Notes under the pieces: model-generated
The model's input: only the letters and a program-made list of their open reading frames with translations
Told to the model about the DNA's origin: nothing
Database searches by the model: none
From: Granulicella cerasi
GTDB lineage: Bacteria; Acidobacteriota; Terriglobia; Terriglobales; Acidobacteriaceae
NCBI RefSeq assembly: GCF_025685575.1
Contig: NZ_JAGSYD010000003.1
Span: 372,001 to 436,000, forward strand
DNA: 64,000 nt
Direction of reading: 5' to 3'
Made by a program: the position numbers and the translations under genes
Part shown: piece after piece, positions 42,019 to 47,556 of the stretch
How positions within the stretch are numbered: position 1 is the stretch's first letter
Layout: the number at the start of each line of letters is the position of its first letter

Positions 42019-42735
42019 CTAAGAGGCTTTCTCGCTGAAGGTGTGAATGCCACACTCGAGCTTCTTGCCGCCCCACCGTCCAGAGCGGGGATCAGCGCCA
42101 GCCTCAGGGATCTTCGTACAAGGCTCGCAGCCGATGGAGGTGTAGCCGAGGTCATAGAGCGAAAGCTTCGGGATGCCATGCTCATTCGCATAAGCTTCCA
42201 CTCGCGCCCAATCCCAATCCGCGAGGATGCTGACCTTCTTGAGCATCTTCCCCGTCGGCAGCTTGTGGTCTTCCACCTTCTTCAGGCCCGCGCGCGTGGG
42301 CGACTGCTCACGACGCAACCCCGTAAACCACCATGAGTACGGCTCAAGAGAACGCATCAACGGCTCGACTTTACGCAGGTTGCAGCACTCCGTTGGTTGC
42401 ACGATATGCAGCAGGCCGAACTGGCTCTCATGCTCCGCCAGCGTCTGCTTCGGCATCGCATTGACGAGGTTCAGCCGCCACTCGTTCACGAGCCGATCGC
42501 GATACTCGATCAGTGCCGGGAAGTGATAGCCGGTCTCGAGAAAGATCACCGGCACATCTGCCAGGTGCTTGCGCAGCAGATGCAGGACCACCATGTCTTC
42601 CGCCTGAAAGCTCGAGGTGAGGCACACGTGCTCGCCACCGCTGGCGCGCAGCACCTCTGCGACAAGCTCCTCTGCCGACAACGCCTCTACCGCTGCGTTG
42701 TCCTCCAGCACATTGCTCTCTGCCACACTCGACAT
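42019..42735 (-). CDS. cysH: assimilatory (phospho)adenylyl-sulfate reductase, 4Fe-4S APS type
   Basis: 238 aa. Reduces activated sulfate to sulfite with thioredoxin. The PP-loop-like TSSFQAEDMVVLHLL and ETGYHFPALIEY bind the nucleotide; TGLRREQSPTRA follows. It carries the Cys-Cys (PTECCNLRKV) and Cys-x-x-Cys (GCEPCTK) pairs that ligate a 4Fe-4S cluster in APS reductases, and the redox Cys in the C-terminal ECGIH. PAPS-specific enzymes lack the cluster cysteines, so APS is the likely substrate. ATG at 42735 has AAGGGG about 6-8 nt upstream. Third gene of cysD-cysN-cysH, 21 bp after cysN. Confidence 0.93.
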   Translation of the reverse strand: MSSVAESNVLEDNAAVEALSAEELVAEVLRASGGEHVCLTSSFQAEDMVVLHLLRKHLADVPVIFLETGYHFPALIEYRDRLVNEWRLNLVNAMPKQTLAEHESQFGLLHIVQPTECCNLRKVEPLMRSLEPYSWWFTGLRREQSPTRAGLKKVEDHKLPTGKMLKKVSILADWDWARVEAYANEHGIPKLSLYDLGYTSIGCEPCTKIPEAGADPRSGRWGGKKLECGIHTFSEKAS

Positions 42736-42756: not shown

Positions 42757-44391
42757 CTAGCGAACGAACCGCTCTTCGGCGGCCTCTGCTGATTCGATGA
42801 ATGCATCACCCACAAGGTCGCGAAGCTTTGCAGTCGTGGCTTCGTCCAGCGAGCGCGAAGTGATCGCCACCACGCCAGCCAACTGCAGCGCACGCGCCAC
42901 GGAGACGATAGAAGCCTCGTCGATCAACACATCGTCAATGATCACAGCCTGCTGGTGCTGCGATGCAAGGACTTCAGCAATACGCCTTGCGGCCGCGGCA
43001 TCACCGCGCAGCGCGACGAACGCAAAACCCGTCGCAGCATCGTCGCTGCTCGCTTCCGTGGCTTCGATGATCATCGCCGCGCCCACAGTAGCGTTGCTTA
43101 CAGGGTCGATGAGGATCAGAGAGCCCATGCCGCGCGACTCTGCATAGGCGTCGAAGAACAGCGGCAAGCTGGTCTCGAACTCAACCTCGGCGATGTCGTT
43201 CATCTGCAGCTCGGCCGCGTCGACATGCTCCGTCGTATTGACGTTCACGCGATAGCGAATCGCCTTCACGGTAGCGCGCACCGTGCGTGTCGTGTGCTTG
43301 GCGAGATACGTCTTGCCTACGCGCAGCGGCGTCTCGTGCATCCACACAATCATCGTGCGAAACGCCGTGCTCGCCGACGGCGCAACTTCGTTCTCTGCGA
43401 TCAGCATTTCGCCGCGCGAGAGATCAATCTCGTCCTCGAGCTCGATGGTGATCGAGCGCGGCGACGCGGCGGACTTCAGCTCACCGTCGTACGTCACGAT
43501 GCTCTTCACGCGCGTCGTGCGTCCGCTCGGCAAAGCCTTCACCTTCTGCCCTGCGCGCACTTCTCCACGCTCCACGCGACCAGCAAAGCCGCGGAAGTTC
43601 ATGTCAGGGCGCACGACGAGCTGCACCGGAAAACGCAGCGGTTCTGTGGCTTCGTCAGTCACCTTGAGGGGCACCGTCTCGAGATACTCGAGCAATGTTT
43701 TTCCTGTGTACCAAGGCATGTTGGTGCTCGGGTCAACAACGTTGTCGCCCGCGAGCGCGCTCACCGGAACGATGTCCATGCTCTTGATGCCGAGCTTCGT
43801 CGCCAGCGCAGTGAACTGCTCCTTCACCTGCGCGTAGACCTCTTCCGAGTAGCCGACGAGGTCCATCTTATTCACGGCTGCCACGACGTGCGGAATGCGC
43901 AACAGCGAAGCGATGTAGGTGTGGCGGCGCGACTGCGGCAGCAGGCCACCGGCCTTAGCAAACGCATTCGCGTCGATGAGCACAATCGCCACATCAGCGG
44001 TCGAAGCACCGGTCGCCATGTTGCGCGTGTACTGCTCGTGGCCGGGGGTGTCCGCGATGATGAACTTGCGCTTCGAGGTCGAGAAGTAGCGATACGCCAC
44101 GTCGATTGTGATGCCCTGCTCGCGCTCGGCCTTCAGGCCATCGGTCAACAGCGAAAGATCCACGCGGCCTTCGCCAGCGCGGTTTACGCGGCTCGCGCGG
44201 ATCGTCGCAAGCTGATCTTCGTAGACGCTCTTGGTGTCGTGCAGCAGGCGACCGATCAGCGTCGACTTGCCATCGTCCACCGAGCCAGCAGTAGTGAAGC
44301 GCAGCATCTCCTGGTCGAGATGCGCGTCGAGAAAAGTGCGGAAGCGTTGCTCATGTTGAGCGTCGGTGAGGTTCAACGTAGTCGTCGACAT
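42757..44391 (-). CDS. cysN: sulfate adenylyltransferase subunit 1 (GTPase), with degenerate C-terminal extension
   Basis: 544 aa. GTPase that drives APS formation by CysD. EF-Tu-like G motifs: GSVDDGKSTLIGRLL, DTPGHEQYTRNMATGAS, NKMDLVGYSEE. Domains 2 and 3 end near residue 440 (GSLILIDPVSNATVGAAMI). The remaining 100 residues have no counterpart in a plain CysN (about 475 aa) and are shorter than a CysC APS-kinase domain in CysNC (about 630 aa). Segments FVALRGDAAAARRIAEVL, AVIIDD and SVARALQLAGVVAITSRSLD look like a kinase core that has lost its P-loop. ATG directly abuts the cysD TAA. Confidence 0.94.
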   Translation of the reverse strand: MSTTTLNLTDAQHEQRFRTFLDAHLDQEMLRFTTAGSVDDGKSTLIGRLLHDTKSVYEDQLATIRASRVNRAGEGRVDLSLLTDGLKAEREQGITIDVAYRYFSTSKRKFIIADTPGHEQYTRNMATGASTADVAIVLIDANAFAKAGGLLPQSRRHTYIASLLRIPHVVAAVNKMDLVGYSEEVYAQVKEQFTALATKLGIKSMDIVPVSALAGDNVVDPSTNMPWYTGKTLLEYLETVPLKVTDEATEPLRFPVQLVVRPDMNFRGFAGRVERGEVRAGQKVKALPSGRTTRVKSIVTYDGELKSAASPRSITIELEDEIDLSRGEMLIAENEVAPSASTAFRTMIVWMHETPLRVGKTYLAKHTTRTVRATVKAIRYRVNVNTTEHVDAAELQMNDIAEVEFETSLPLFFDAYAESRGMGSLILIDPVSNATVGAAMIIEATEASSDDAATGFAFVALRGDAAAARRIAEVLASQHQQAVIIDDVLIDEASIVSVARALQLAGVVAITSRSLDEATTAKLRDLVGDAFIESAEAAEERFVR

Positions 44392-45339
44392 TTAGAAGTA
44401 GCCCTCCCGCTTCTTCGTTTCCATGGAGCCTTCTTCGTCGTGGTCAATCGCGCGGTTTTCGCGCTCGGAACGACGGAAGGTGATCAGCTCTTCGATAATC
44501 TTCGGCAGCGTGTCTGCCTCACTGGCGATCGCGCCCGTGCAGGGCGAGCAGCCCAGCGAGCGCATGCGCACCATGCGCTTCTCCACGGTCTCATGCGGTA
44601 ACAAACGCGTCGTGTGATCGACGATCGTCAACGTACCGCCACGCACCACGACATCACGCTCCTGCGCAAAGTACATCGGCACGATCGGAATCTGTTCCGA
44701 GTAGAGATAGAGCCAGATGTCGAGCTCCGTCCAGTTCGAAAGCGGGAACACGCGAATAGACTCACCCTTGCGCAGACGCGAGTTATACAGCGACCACAGC
44801 TCAGGACGCTGGTTCTTCGGGTCCCACTGGCCCGCCCCATCGCGGAACGAGTACACACGCTCTTTCGCGCGCGATTTCTCTTCATCACGACGAGCACCGC
44901 CGAACGCAGCGTCAAAGCCGCCTTCAGCAAGACCATCGAGCAGTGAACGCGTCTTCAAAGCACCGCAGCAGTTCTGCGTGCCGAGCTTCCACGGGCTCGC
45001 GCCGTCGGCAATCGCCTCTTCGTTGCGATGCACGATCAGCTCCGCGCCAATTTCCTTGGTGTACTTGTCGCGGAACTCGATCATCTCCGTGAACTTGTAG
45101 CTGGTGTCGACATGCAGCAGCGGGAAGGGAATCTTGCCAGGGAAGAACGCTTTCTGCGCAAGGCGCAACATGACGCTCGAGTCCTTGCCGATCGAGTACA
45201 GCATGACCGGCTTGGCGAACTCAGCCACGGCCTCGCGGAAGATGTAGAGGCTCTCGGCCTCCAGCGCCTGCAGGTGGTTCAGCCGCTCGTGATAAACCTC
45301 GCGAACCGAATCCGGCAGCGTATCGACGGGTGTAGACAA
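44392..45339 (-). CDS. cysD: sulfate adenylyltransferase subunit 2
   Basis: 315 aa catalytic subunit (PP-loop ATP pyrophosphatase family) making APS from ATP and sulfate with CysN. Signature [22 protein letters not shown] (P-loop-like SGKDSS variant), [62 protein letters not shown] and the CPCTGAI-like [10 protein letters not shown] segment. The start is a TTG at 45339 with GGAGG 8 nt upstream. First structural gene of the cys operon, 132 nt after a Cys-rich leader ORF. Confidence 0.95.
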
Positions 45340-45369
45340 AGGTGGTGCCTCCGAAGAGTGATGTGCGGC

Positions 45370-45473
45370 GATCGACGACCGGCCGAGGCCGAATCAGGGA
45401 TACGTCGCATAGATCTGGATGTGAAAGGGTGTTGCGAGCCTCAGCCGCGTGGGCCGGGTAGGGTCGATCGATC
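45370..45473 (-). promoter_or_regulatory. long-range RNA structure between Cys leader ORF and cysD (candidate attenuator)
   Basis: On the transcript, 45473-45462 (GATCGATCGACC, overlapping the leader stop codon) can pair with 45380-45370 (GGTCGTCGATC, one bulge). Nested inside, 45446-45438 (GGCTGAGGC) can pair with 45389-45381 (GCCTCGGCC, one G-U). The GCCTC of the latter strand can alternatively pair with GAGGC of the cysD ribosome-binding site (45352-45347). These two pairings exclude each other, the form expected of translational attenuation. There is no T-run for intrinsic termination. Confidence 0.5.
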
Positions 45474-45537
45474 AGTGGCAACAACAGGCCGCGGGGGCCT
45501 GGTGACAACACATCGCAATCGCGCGCAAAACTCGCAT
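45472..45537 (-). CDS. cysteine-rich leader peptide upstream of cysD (21 aa)
   Basis: ATG at 45537, TGA at 45474-45472. The peptide has five Cys in 21 residues, in two clusters: Cys10-Cys11 and Cys18-Cys19-Cys20, each followed by His. Codons are TGT-TGT and TGT-TGT-TGC. It sits 132 nt before cysD in the same direction. A promoter (45544-45572) ends 6 nt before its ATG, so the message would be leaderless. Known precedent: polycysteine leaderless short ORFs act as cysteine-responsive attenuators of sulfur genes in mycobacteria. The reading here, that stalling at Cys codons senses Cys-tRNA supply for cysDNH, is inference. Confidence 0.7.
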   Translation of the reverse strand: MRVLRAIAMCCHQAPAACCCH

Positions 45538-45543
45538 GACTTC

Positions 45544-45572
45544 AGTGTAAGCGGCCTCGGCTCAGGCGGCAA
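45544..45572 (-). promoter_or_regulatory. promoter of the cys leader-cysDNH operon
   Basis: On the minus strand TTGCCG (45572-45567), a 17-bp spacer, TACACT (45549-45544), then GAAGTC and the leader ATG. Initiation 7 nt after the -10 falls on the A of the ATG. From here to the ompA-like gene's Shine-Dalgarno (about 45573-45731) I see no other gene. Confidence 0.6.
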
Positions 45573-45741
45573 ATCCTGTCTGACAGCGCAGCTGCGCGAC
45601 GCGTCGGAATTAGGGACGCGTATTCCACAAGCAAATCTTCAACCCCGTGTGGATAAAGCCTTTGCAGATGAACCATTCCAGTAAACTTCCTTCAGTTGTT
45701 TCCACTTTTATGCCGTTTTCCGTTGGATTTCGGGAGGTTCC

Positions 45742-47556
45742 TTGCTGCCCACGTTCCGCCTGCTTGCCCGCCGTTTTGCCGGTGTTGCCACGCTGCTCGT
45801 CTGCGGTATGGTCGCCGCGTCTATCCATGCGCAGGCTGCTAAGTCCGCGACGGACAACAAGGATTCGCGCGTCGATATTTACGGCGGCTACGCCTTCTGG
45901 CACCCTCTGAACTCCGGCATCGACGGCAAGCAGTATCAGGACATGTGGAACCCCAACGCCACCGCGAGCGTCAGCTATTACTTCAACCGCTACGTGGGCG
46001 TGCAGATGGAAGGCTCTTACTTCTCCGGGCAGAACGAGCACAAGCCGTACGATCCGAACTGCACGAAGACCATGTGCGATCAGCTCATCTACACCGCGGA
46101 AGCTGGTCCTGTTCTGCGTTATCCCATCGGGCACTGGGTACCGTTCATTCACGCTCTAGGCGGCGGCGAGCGCACGAATGGCCCCGTCGATCAGCATCTC
46201 TTCTGGGGCTGGGGCGTCACAGGCGGTGCGGGGCTGGATTACGTCTTCCCGTTCTGGAATCAGCGTCTCGCCGTGCGCCCGATCCAGGCGGACTGGCAAT
46301 ACTCGCAGGTCGTCTACGGCCCGCTCGTATTGCCCGCAGGAAACGTCGGTGGCTTCGGAGAGATCTCCGCGCTCAAGCTTTCGGGCGGCATCGTGCTTCG
46401 CTTCGGCGAGATTCATAACCCGCAACCGATTTCCATTGGCTGCAAGGTTGAACCTGGCTCGGTGCTCGCGGGTGAGCCGATCACCGCGACCGCAGAAACC
46501 ATGGGCCTGAACCCCAAGCGCAAGGCCGTCTTCACCTGGAACACCAACGGCGGCCACCTCACCCCCAACGGCCCTACGGCTTCGGTGGACACCACCGGCC
46601 TGCTGCCGGGTGAGTACGTCGTCGGCGCGCGCCTTACGCAAGGCCCGCACGCCTATGAGATCGCGACCTGCGAGGCGCCGTTCACGGTCAAGAAGCTCGT
46701 TGAGCCGACTGCGGTCGCCGCCGCCCCCGATGCCTCAGGACCGCCCACGATCTCCTGCTCGGCCCTGCCAACCAGCGCGCCCTCGGGCACGACCATTGAC
46801 ATCACGGCAACGGCAGGGAGCCCCGGCAATCGTCCGTTGTCCTACTCGTATGCGGCCAGCGCAGGACAGATCACCGGCAACGGCAGCACCGCTCGCCTTA
46901 CCACTGCAGGCATCGGCGACGGCCTCATCACTGTCACCTGCAACGTCGTGGACGATCAGGGCCAGCGTGCCTCTTCGACCGCTGCCGTTCAGATCGCGAT
47001 GCCGATCGTTCCGGTCATCCCGCAGACGCGTCAGCTTTGCTCTATCAGCTTCGAACGCGATCGCCGCCGCCCGGCTCGCGTAGACAACGAAGCCAAGGCG
47101 TGCCTTGATGACATCGCGCTCACGCTCGGCTCGCAGACCGATGCGCATCTCGAGATGGTGGGCAATGCTCGCCCCAACGAGAACCCGCAGGAAGCGGCTG
47201 AGCGCGCTCTGAACGCTCGCCAGTACCTCGTGCAGGAGAAGGGCATCGATCCTTCGCGCATCGAAGTCCGCGTCGGCCAGACCTCTGGCCGCACGCTCGA
47301 CAACGTGCTCGTGCCCACCGGATCCACGTACAACGACGGCAATACGCAGCTCTTCGACGAAGGTCAGATCCATCGCCACGGTGAAGCGTATGGCGTGCAT
47401 CACGGCGCAGTTCGCTCAGGGGTCTCGCGACCGGGCGCAACGCGTGTACATCGCCGCACGGCGGTTCGTCGTTCCACAGCAAGTCGCGCAGTGGCACCTG
47501 CAGCGGCACCCACGACGAACAACAGCGGCTCGCCAGTAATTCCGCCGCTTCAGTAG
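45742..47556 (+). CDS. outer-membrane beta-barrel protein with Ig-like repeats and OmpA-like C-terminal domain
   Basis: 604 aa. Signal peptide in residues 1-33. Residues about 42-220 form an outer-membrane barrel of the opacity/OmpA type (VDIYGGYAFWHPL, ATASVSYYFNRYVGVQMEGSYF, GGAGLDYVFPFWNQRLAVRPIQADW). Two Ig-like segments follow (about 230-320 and 330-420). An OmpA-like domain follows at about 430-520 (NPQEAAERALNARQYLVQEKGIDPSRIEVRVGQ), expected to touch peptidoglycan. The last 75 residues are His/Arg- then Ala/Pro-rich. The start is a TTG at 45742 with GGGAGG 4-5 nt upstream. Confidence 0.85.
   Translation: MLPTFRLLARRFAGVATLLVCGMVAASIHAQAAKSATDNKDSRVDIYGGYAFWHPLNSGIDGKQYQDMWNPNATASVSYYFNRYVGVQMEGSYFSGQNEHKPYDPNCTKTMCDQLIYTAEAGPVLRYPIGHWVPFIHALGGGERTNGPVDQHLFWGWGVTGGAGLDYVFPFWNQRLAVRPIQADWQYSQVVYGPLVLPAGNVGGFGEISALKLSGGIVLRFGEIHNPQPISIGCKVEPGSVLAGEPITATAETMGLNPKRKAVFTWNTNGGHLTPNGPTASVDTTGLLPGEYVVGARLTQGPHAYEIATCEAPFTVKKLVEPTAVAAAPDASGPPTISCSALPTSAPSGTTIDITATAGSPGNRPLSYSYAASAGQITGNGSTARLTTAGIGDGLITVTCNVVDDQGQRASSTAAVQIAMPIVPVIPQTRQLCSISFERDRRRPARVDNEAKACLDDIALTLGSQTDAHLEMVGNARPNENPQEAAERALNARQYLVQEKGIDPSRIEVRVGQTSGRTLDNVLVPTGSTYNDGNTQLFDEGQIHRHGEAYGVHHGAVRSGVSRPGATRVHRRTAVRRSTASRAVAPAAAPTTNNSGSPVIPPLQ

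Follow-up and report, generated by a model that had tools for sequence, protein, structure and literature searches.

The window, by which we mean the whole stretch of 64,000 nucleotides analysed here, carries a cysD-cysN-cysH operon on its minus strand, preceded by a short Cys-rich ORF with a promoter close to its start (Table 1). An earlier note on this DNA had described a 21-codon ORF with five Cys codons and a promoter ending 6 nt before the ATG, and on direct reading all of this, coordinates included, proved to be right. The ATG lies at 45537-45535 and the TGA at 45474-45472, and the Cys residues occupy positions 10, 11, 18, 19 and 20 of MRVLRAIAMCCHQAPAACCCH. The Cys codons thus form contiguous runs near the leader stop, CC at 10-11 and CCC at 18-20 of 21, with cysD-cysN-cysH following. 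Both of the complementarities attributed to GCCTC, to a strand of an inner stem and to the cysD Shine-Dalgarno GGAGGC, are also present in the sequence, and GCCTCGGCC (45389-45381, holding GCCTC at 45389-45385) can pair with GGCTGAGGC (45446-45438) over 9 bp, one of them G-U.

Table 1. Leader features and operon genes of the cysD region in the window
Feature	Position	Strand	Basis or remark
-35 element TTGCCG	45567-45572	-	direct reading; identical hexamer in relative L030, TTGCCC in relative L003
-10 element TACACT, 17-nt spacer, 6 nt to ATG	45544-45549	-	direct reading; spacing recurs in other leaders
Poly-Cys leader ORF, 21 codons + TGA, MRVLRAIAMCCHQAPAACCCH, putatively leaderless	45472-45537	-	
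C-rich tract, C 0.43 / G 0.20, 60 nt past leader stop; candidate Rho-loading region	45412-45471	-	
Inner stem of 9 bp, 5' strand GGCTGAGGC	45438-45446	-	direct reading; possible pairs 5/9 in relative L002, 4/9 in L030
Inner stem, 3' strand GCCTCGGCC; its GCCTC also complementary to Shine-Dalgarno	45381-45389	-	
cysD Shine-Dalgarno GGAGGC	45347-45352	-	predicted occluded by local CGGAGG/CCTTTG pairing, start codon included
cysD, sulfate adenylyltransferase subunit CysD	44392-45339	-	NCBIfam TIGR02039 above cut-off; TTG start 45339
cysN, sulfate adenylyltransferase subunit CysN	42757-44391	-	NCBIfam NF003478 and TIGR02034 above cut-off
cysH, phosphoadenylyl-sulfate reductase family	42019-42735	-	NCBIfam NF002537 above cut-off

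Folded alone, the whole 208-nt leader RNA of the window is of unremarkable stability (z -0.73). When 4227 Rfam families were compared with positions 45200-45800 none matched at E 1, and six other loci gave no match at gathering score; neither the window peptide nor ten others matched an NCBIfam model in a search that had no positive control and in which short peptides score poorly. The intergenic region that holds the cysD promoter also borders a divergent gene (45742-47556, plus strand), whose translation resembles an outer-membrane protein and is OmpA-like towards its C-terminus.

Cysteine-rich leaders ahead of cysD in Acidobacteria

CysD matches were found in 38 of 61 genomes, the window's own genome counted, and, at E 1e-80, in 234 of the 399 genomes searched across the class. 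Upstream DNA was inspected at 30 loci of the 61-genome search, at 80 of the class search, hand-picked among the score-ranked matches listed, and at 47 of the best 80 loci from a scan of named genomes. After removal of 5 duplicates and 2 loci with short upstream sequence, 141 loci left 134 non-duplicate regions of 350 nt, in which ATG or GTG ORFs of 8-45 codons were counted. A short ORF with at least five Cys was present in 62 of these 134 acidobacterial regions, compared with 1 on the reverse strand and a mean of 2.1 (maximum 7) in 100 dinucleotide shuffles, the loci being related by descent and the counts therefore not independent events. An earlier and overlapping set gave 21 of 59 against 0.85 expected, after removal of two duplicates, of the records L061, L062 and L064, which are non-acidobacterial or distant, and of every locus having less than 300 nt upstream. 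By group, the ORF was found in 34 of 43 regions from other genera of the window's own family, 11 of 25 from its own genus, 10 of 34 named and other loci, 7 of 13 from a family designated f7, and none of 19 from a family designated f6, in which no region reached as many as four Cys. Family f6 is probably Bryobacteraceae, since its locus L171 is a duplicate of L038, a record named as Candidatus Sulfopaludibacter.

The leader peptides diverge between groups yet keep their Cys clusters, as in MKGVYCCCQCFSCCCC, MVMHRTPACLTCCSCCCQACSCGCACCR, MVVFVSCACCCCRMLPCPCPRCCR and MASTLCTFACRIECRCCYDISACRRGCKHCR, and the Cys content rises to 11 in 28 residues. In alignment columns picked as mostly Cys, TGT and TGC replace each other synonymously in 2 of 7, in 4 of 8 and in 5 of 8. 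One subgroup (L027, L055, L059, L063 and L065) has a conserved LSNIFDGC, or close variants of it, after a Cys pair upstream of cysD, and no terminator was found in the four members scanned, L063 being left out. Short ORFs with at least three Cys were absent from all 13 loci of other phyla among the 47 named loci inspected. For genomes without a strong CysD match, such a leader stood in front of none of 11 sat genes, and two ORFs with at least four Cys lay inside sat itself. In the window's own genome no leader-like poly-Cys ORF was found just in front of the sulfite reductase gene or of nine PALP-family (cysK-like) matches, and ORFs with at least three Cys at these loci occurred only inside or beside other long ORFs. 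Among the matches listed in the open-licence literature we found no paper on Cys leader peptides in Acidobacteria, and such work may be in print elsewhere.

Promoter geometry was analysed in 79 leaders picked by a content of at least four Cys alone, ignoring promoters; two of them (L130 and L135) were judged spurious picks, and the L015 pick uses an upstream start, the likely leader there being an 18-codon ORF. A TANNNT box ends 7-11 nt before the candidate start in 45 of the 79, against 1-17 in other five-base windows. The peak lies at single gaps of 6 and 7 nt, with 10 and 23 matches respectively, and in 30 of the 79 no TANNNT ends 4-10 nt before a start. This spacing, which recurs across leaders, supports a transcript start at or next to the leader start codon. 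The proposal of the earlier note, a leaderless poly-Cys leader sensed by the ribosome before cysD, is in this respect supported by the comparison, through the recurring Cys ORFs, the promoter spacing and the terminators described below. Judged on sequence comparison, cysteine-responsive attenuation as a class in Acidobacteria is well supported.

In the window's own genus a Cys-containing ORF occurs at the leaderless spacing in 20 of 25 genomes; four more (L022-L025) have poly-Cys ORFs but lack the TANNNT box, and L028 is the one genome in which no Cys-containing leader ORF was found. The nearest relative, L002, whose CysD is 93% identical, keeps the leaderless ORF and promoter with two non-adjacent Cys codons (MRRFEGITARCPRLVQAGC); at about 90% CysD identity, L030 has 5 Cys and L003 has 7. 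Ten further genomes of the genus (L010-L019) have a leaderless ORF with an R[IV][AT]RC motif, some 210-250 nt ahead of where the cysD match begins. Nine of these ORFs hold 1-2 Cys and the other, L012, reads on to four, and the meaning of the sensor may have changed in this group. No convincing consensus structure for the terminator-less type emerged from aligned leaders, of which three came from the own genus, seven from the MLPCPC group and ten from the R[IV][AT]RC group. The conservation among relatives that the earlier note had proposed as a check is therefore seen for the class, in 62 of 134 cysD regions, and weakly in the closest species, where L002 keeps the ORF and promoter with two Cys alone. 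With just two Cys codons in the nearest relative, the window instance is less certain than the class, and is itself likely. In L030 (G009:C4) the CysD matches fall in several pieces in different frames, and either cysD or the assembly may be disrupted at this locus.

Terminators and the output step

After exclusion of L052, in which the ORF is too near cysD, 78 leaders could be scanned for terminators, and 37 of them have a hairpin of -10 kcal/mol or below with a U-tract between the ORF and cysD, compared with 1.4 in shuffles. The terminator ends 50-97 nt, mostly 55-75 nt, past the ORF stop. A curated set, again of 37, drops L130 (where the hairpin belongs before another, shorter ORF) and adds L142 (-9.0); it comprises 11 of 11 leaders in f7, 14 of 39 in other genera of the window's own family, 4 of 13 in its own genus and 8 of 16 among the rest. 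Of the named records, Granulicella sp. dw_53 (L049) and Acidobacterium sp. S8 (L053) each have a leader with a terminator, and in Terriglobus albidus DSM 26559 (L034), whose leader holds 3 Cys, none was found in the 70 nt directly ahead of the cysD match. In folds predicted with the ribosome on the Cys cluster, at least five of the first nine nucleotides of the terminator 5' arm pair into the leader ORF in 26 of the 37, the mean number of such bases being 5.54 against 2.12 with shuffled upstream sequence, and the folding energy lies more than 1.5 sd below shuffles in 19 of the 37. When the ribosome is placed at the stop, it hides the antiterminator partners and the energy amounts to 0 to -6, a difference that comes in part from the shorter RNA. 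On these models the terminator leaders are built like classical transcription attenuators that respond to cysteine, and as far as can be told this terminator-bearing acidobacterial form is new within amino-acid attenuation. The f7 leaders L158-L170 are terminator-type, and their antiterminator strand consists of the 3' leader codons.

No intrinsic terminator was found between the window ORF and its operon. The last Cys of the window leader lies one residue from the stop, and the median distance is likewise 1 in terminator-less leaders (n=38) against 7 in terminator leaders, L020, L052, L130 and L135 being omitted from this comparison. Over the 60 nt past the stop, terminator-less leaders have a C minus G of +0.175, compared with -0.031 upstream of their own promoters, and in f6 cysD upstream DNA the value is about 0. 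Because the Cys codons adjoin the stop, so that a ribosome stalled on them would mask the first part of the C-rich tract, our leading guess for the window output, to which we give a little less than even confidence, is Rho-dependent termination. The C-rich tract of the window is predicted to pair strongly with about 45389-45369, and Rho loading would be hindered by this pairing.

Taken with its surroundings, the ORF at 45537-45472 is likely to act as the sensor in an attenuator of cysDNH that works through the ribosome. Transcription would begin at or beside the leader ATG, as the promoter position suggests, and translation would then be leaderless. When Cys-tRNA is plentiful, the ribosome would pass the CC and CCC codons and depart, and cysDNH expression would be cut; when Cys-tRNA is scarce it would stall on the Cys codons and cysDNH would be expressed. 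For roughly one in two acidobacterial leaders with four or more Cys, and for a second leader of the window's own genome, the cut would be made by an intrinsic terminator, and on stalling the 5' arm of that terminator is predicted to be captured by leader-ORF RNA beyond the ribosome. In the window it could be made by Rho at the C-rich tract, which a ribosome stalled near the stop would shield.

Rival readings and known systems

It is possible that the same sensor has a translational output, a stalled ribosome causing GGCTGAGGC to pair with GCCTCGGCC and so freeing the cysD Shine-Dalgarno, which GCCTC would otherwise block. The complementary segments exist in the window and the Shine-Dalgarno is predicted to be occluded; by eye, two genomes of the same genus (L011 and L018) also have CCTTTGC opposite GCAAAGG at the Shine-Dalgarno, and PMC9031893 and PMC13236596 report that mycobacterial poly-Cys leaders act on downstream translation. 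However, accessibility of the window Shine-Dalgarno stays at 0.03-0.15 whatever the ribosome position, in equilibrium folds that make a weak test, and the site is covered in the fold by the local CCTTTG and not by GCCTC. Of the 9 pairs of the stem, moreover, 5 are still possible at the aligned positions of L002 and 4 at those of L030. A simulation that took in 40 leaders, 31 of them with a usable Shine-Dalgarno site, gave no systematic effect, with mean accessibility 0.24 at Cys and 0.26 at the stop; placing the ribosome at Cys raised it in 5 leaders and lowered it in 3. Of the cysteine sensor proposed in the earlier note, the stall-sensing leader class is supported, and the particular fold change that was to open cysD, by a switch of GCCTC between inner stem and Shine-Dalgarno, is not, the predicted fold being unaltered by ribosome position. 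Occlusion of the cysD ribosome site comes second to Rho as the window output, conceivable and yet rather doubtful.

The window ORF could be a decayed or chance member of the class, in a lineage that once had the leader and has since lost Cys regulation; the two Cys of the nearest relative, the low Cys number (1-2) of all but one of the L010-L019 ORFs and the ordinary fold of the whole leader would fit this. We regard it as quite unlikely, given the five Cys in two clusters and the intact promoter spacing of the window leader, and the 5 and 7 Cys of L030 and L003. Very unlikely, in our judgement, is an action of the peptide itself, as an arresting nascent chain or through some conserved sequence other than the row of Cys codons. 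Subgroups do have non-Cys motifs, namely R[IV][AT]RC, LSNIFDGC with its close variants, and LPCPC, but no motif common to all subgroups was seen, and the 3' codons of terminator-type leaders hold the antiterminator strand, which could explain the conservation of motifs. As for a functional Cys-rich small protein, binding metal or acting in redox binding and merely sharing the operon, a peptide with up to 11 Cys in 28 residues might suggest it; yet sequence, length and Cys count all vary greatly from one group of peptides to another, none of the 11 peptides tested has an NCBIfam match, and a terminator separates the ORF from the operon in 37 of 78 leaders, and we hold this reading to be extremely improbable.

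Poly-Cys leaderless short ORFs of mycobacteria were reportedly described by Canestrari et al. in 2020. They are treated in PMC9031893, PMC9094748 and PMC13236596. Mycobacteria and Acidobacteria have in common a short ORF with a Cys run before cysteine-pathway genes and the presence of several leaders per genome, and would also share the leaderless start and the sensing of Cys supply by ribosome speed. The acidobacterial leaders differ in belonging to another phylum, in having no NCBIfam match and in that 37 of 78 have an intrinsic terminator, with the antiterminator strand in the ORF; the ribosome-site switch is also unsupported in the window, by a folding test that is weak. By analogy, then, the window leader would work like the mycobacterial poly-Cys attenuators and is yet set apart from membership in their class, because neither the ribosome-site switch nor the sequence family was found, by two tests that are both weak.

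Classical attenuators of the trp and his type consist of a leader peptide, an antiterminator and a terminator with a U-tract. The same anatomy is found in the 37 of 78 acidobacterial leaders and in the second leader of the window's genome, but here the signal would be Cys and the start is putatively leaderless, and the window's own leader has no terminator. In the leader of the E. coli tna operon, a ribosome held near the stop shields a Rho-loading site, and the signal is a bound ligand. The signal in the window would instead be a shortage of Cys-tRNA, and Rho action there is a proposal only. Seliverstov et al. (2005) described leader peptides with Cys runs for cys operons of Mycobacterium and P. 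acnes and for cbs of B. longum, and in that paper (PMC1262725) no terminator is seen in the actinobacterial leaders, Rho is proposed, and E. coli tna is named as an analogy. The window leader shares their anatomy, with a Cys run near the stop and no terminator. The Rho-site motifs of the actinobacterial leaders are there called not conserved (PMC1262725), whereas the C-rich, G-poor tract of the acidobacterial leaders is a feature of the group.

A second leader in the same genome

A search of the window's own genome with a poly-Cys pattern gave 40 matches, against 19 for a reversed control pattern, and 20 stretches were inspected. Among them was a second leader, MKQNLTTVANACCMCCCMPRCCAGVCLL, with 8 Cys (L191:1159-1245, plus strand; G000:C3 at about 111,164), which lies ahead of a gene of the YeiH family (PF03601), with a 47-codon ORF in between as judged by eye. 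It begins 10 nt after TTGACA-N17-TAGGCT, and an intrinsic terminator, made of a CCCACGC/GCGTGGG hairpin with TTTTGTATTT, comes after it. With the ribosome on the first Cys pair, the antiterminator fold upstream of the terminator loop is predicted at -35.7 kcal/mol; moving the ribosome to the last Cys gives -5.1, and to the stop -2.4. Counterparts stand before the same gene in ten other genomes of the genus, with seven columns that are Cys in 7-11 of the 11 leaders, and terminators occur in 5 of the 11 compared with 0.25 in shuffles. Over 30 PF03601 loci, an upstream ORF with at least four Cys was present in 17 (11 of them the conserved MKQ-type leader) and absent from 13.

YeiH drives sulfite resistance in Salmonella (PMC12880088), and for this reason joint control of the YeiH gene and the sulfite-producing pathway would be sensible. 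The second leader suggests that the YeiH-family transporter belongs to the cysteine-starvation response in these bacteria. A wider view, which we hold to be evenly poised between right and wrong, is that the Acidobacteriota own a regulon based on cysteine sensing by the ribosome, in which leaderless poly-Cys leaders of fast-evolving sequence and similar geometry would control the sulfate-reduction operon and the YeiH-family transporter. Their outputs would be interchangeable (an intrinsic terminator, probably Rho, and probably masking of the ribosome site), and output and Cys number would switch between close relatives. One leader class would in this way gain a probable signal, target pathway, anatomy and taxonomic spread. 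The joining of one kind of sensor to different outputs among related species, with two types in one genome, might further be seen as a natural experiment, and acidobacterial leaders could make output change in leader attenuators directly testable.

Two other loci gave minor observations. On the minus strand of L201, in the window's own genome, the run CACCCCMACC is part of an ORF, at 1148-1294 of the reverse complement, that lies about 65 nt before a long ORF and may be either a coding overlap or a leader. In L222-L224, which belong to the same genus, a different conserved leader-like peptide, of the MSTPISSFAALPSPARTRCCCTGHSCLR type, is found about 390 nt upstream of the PF03601 match.
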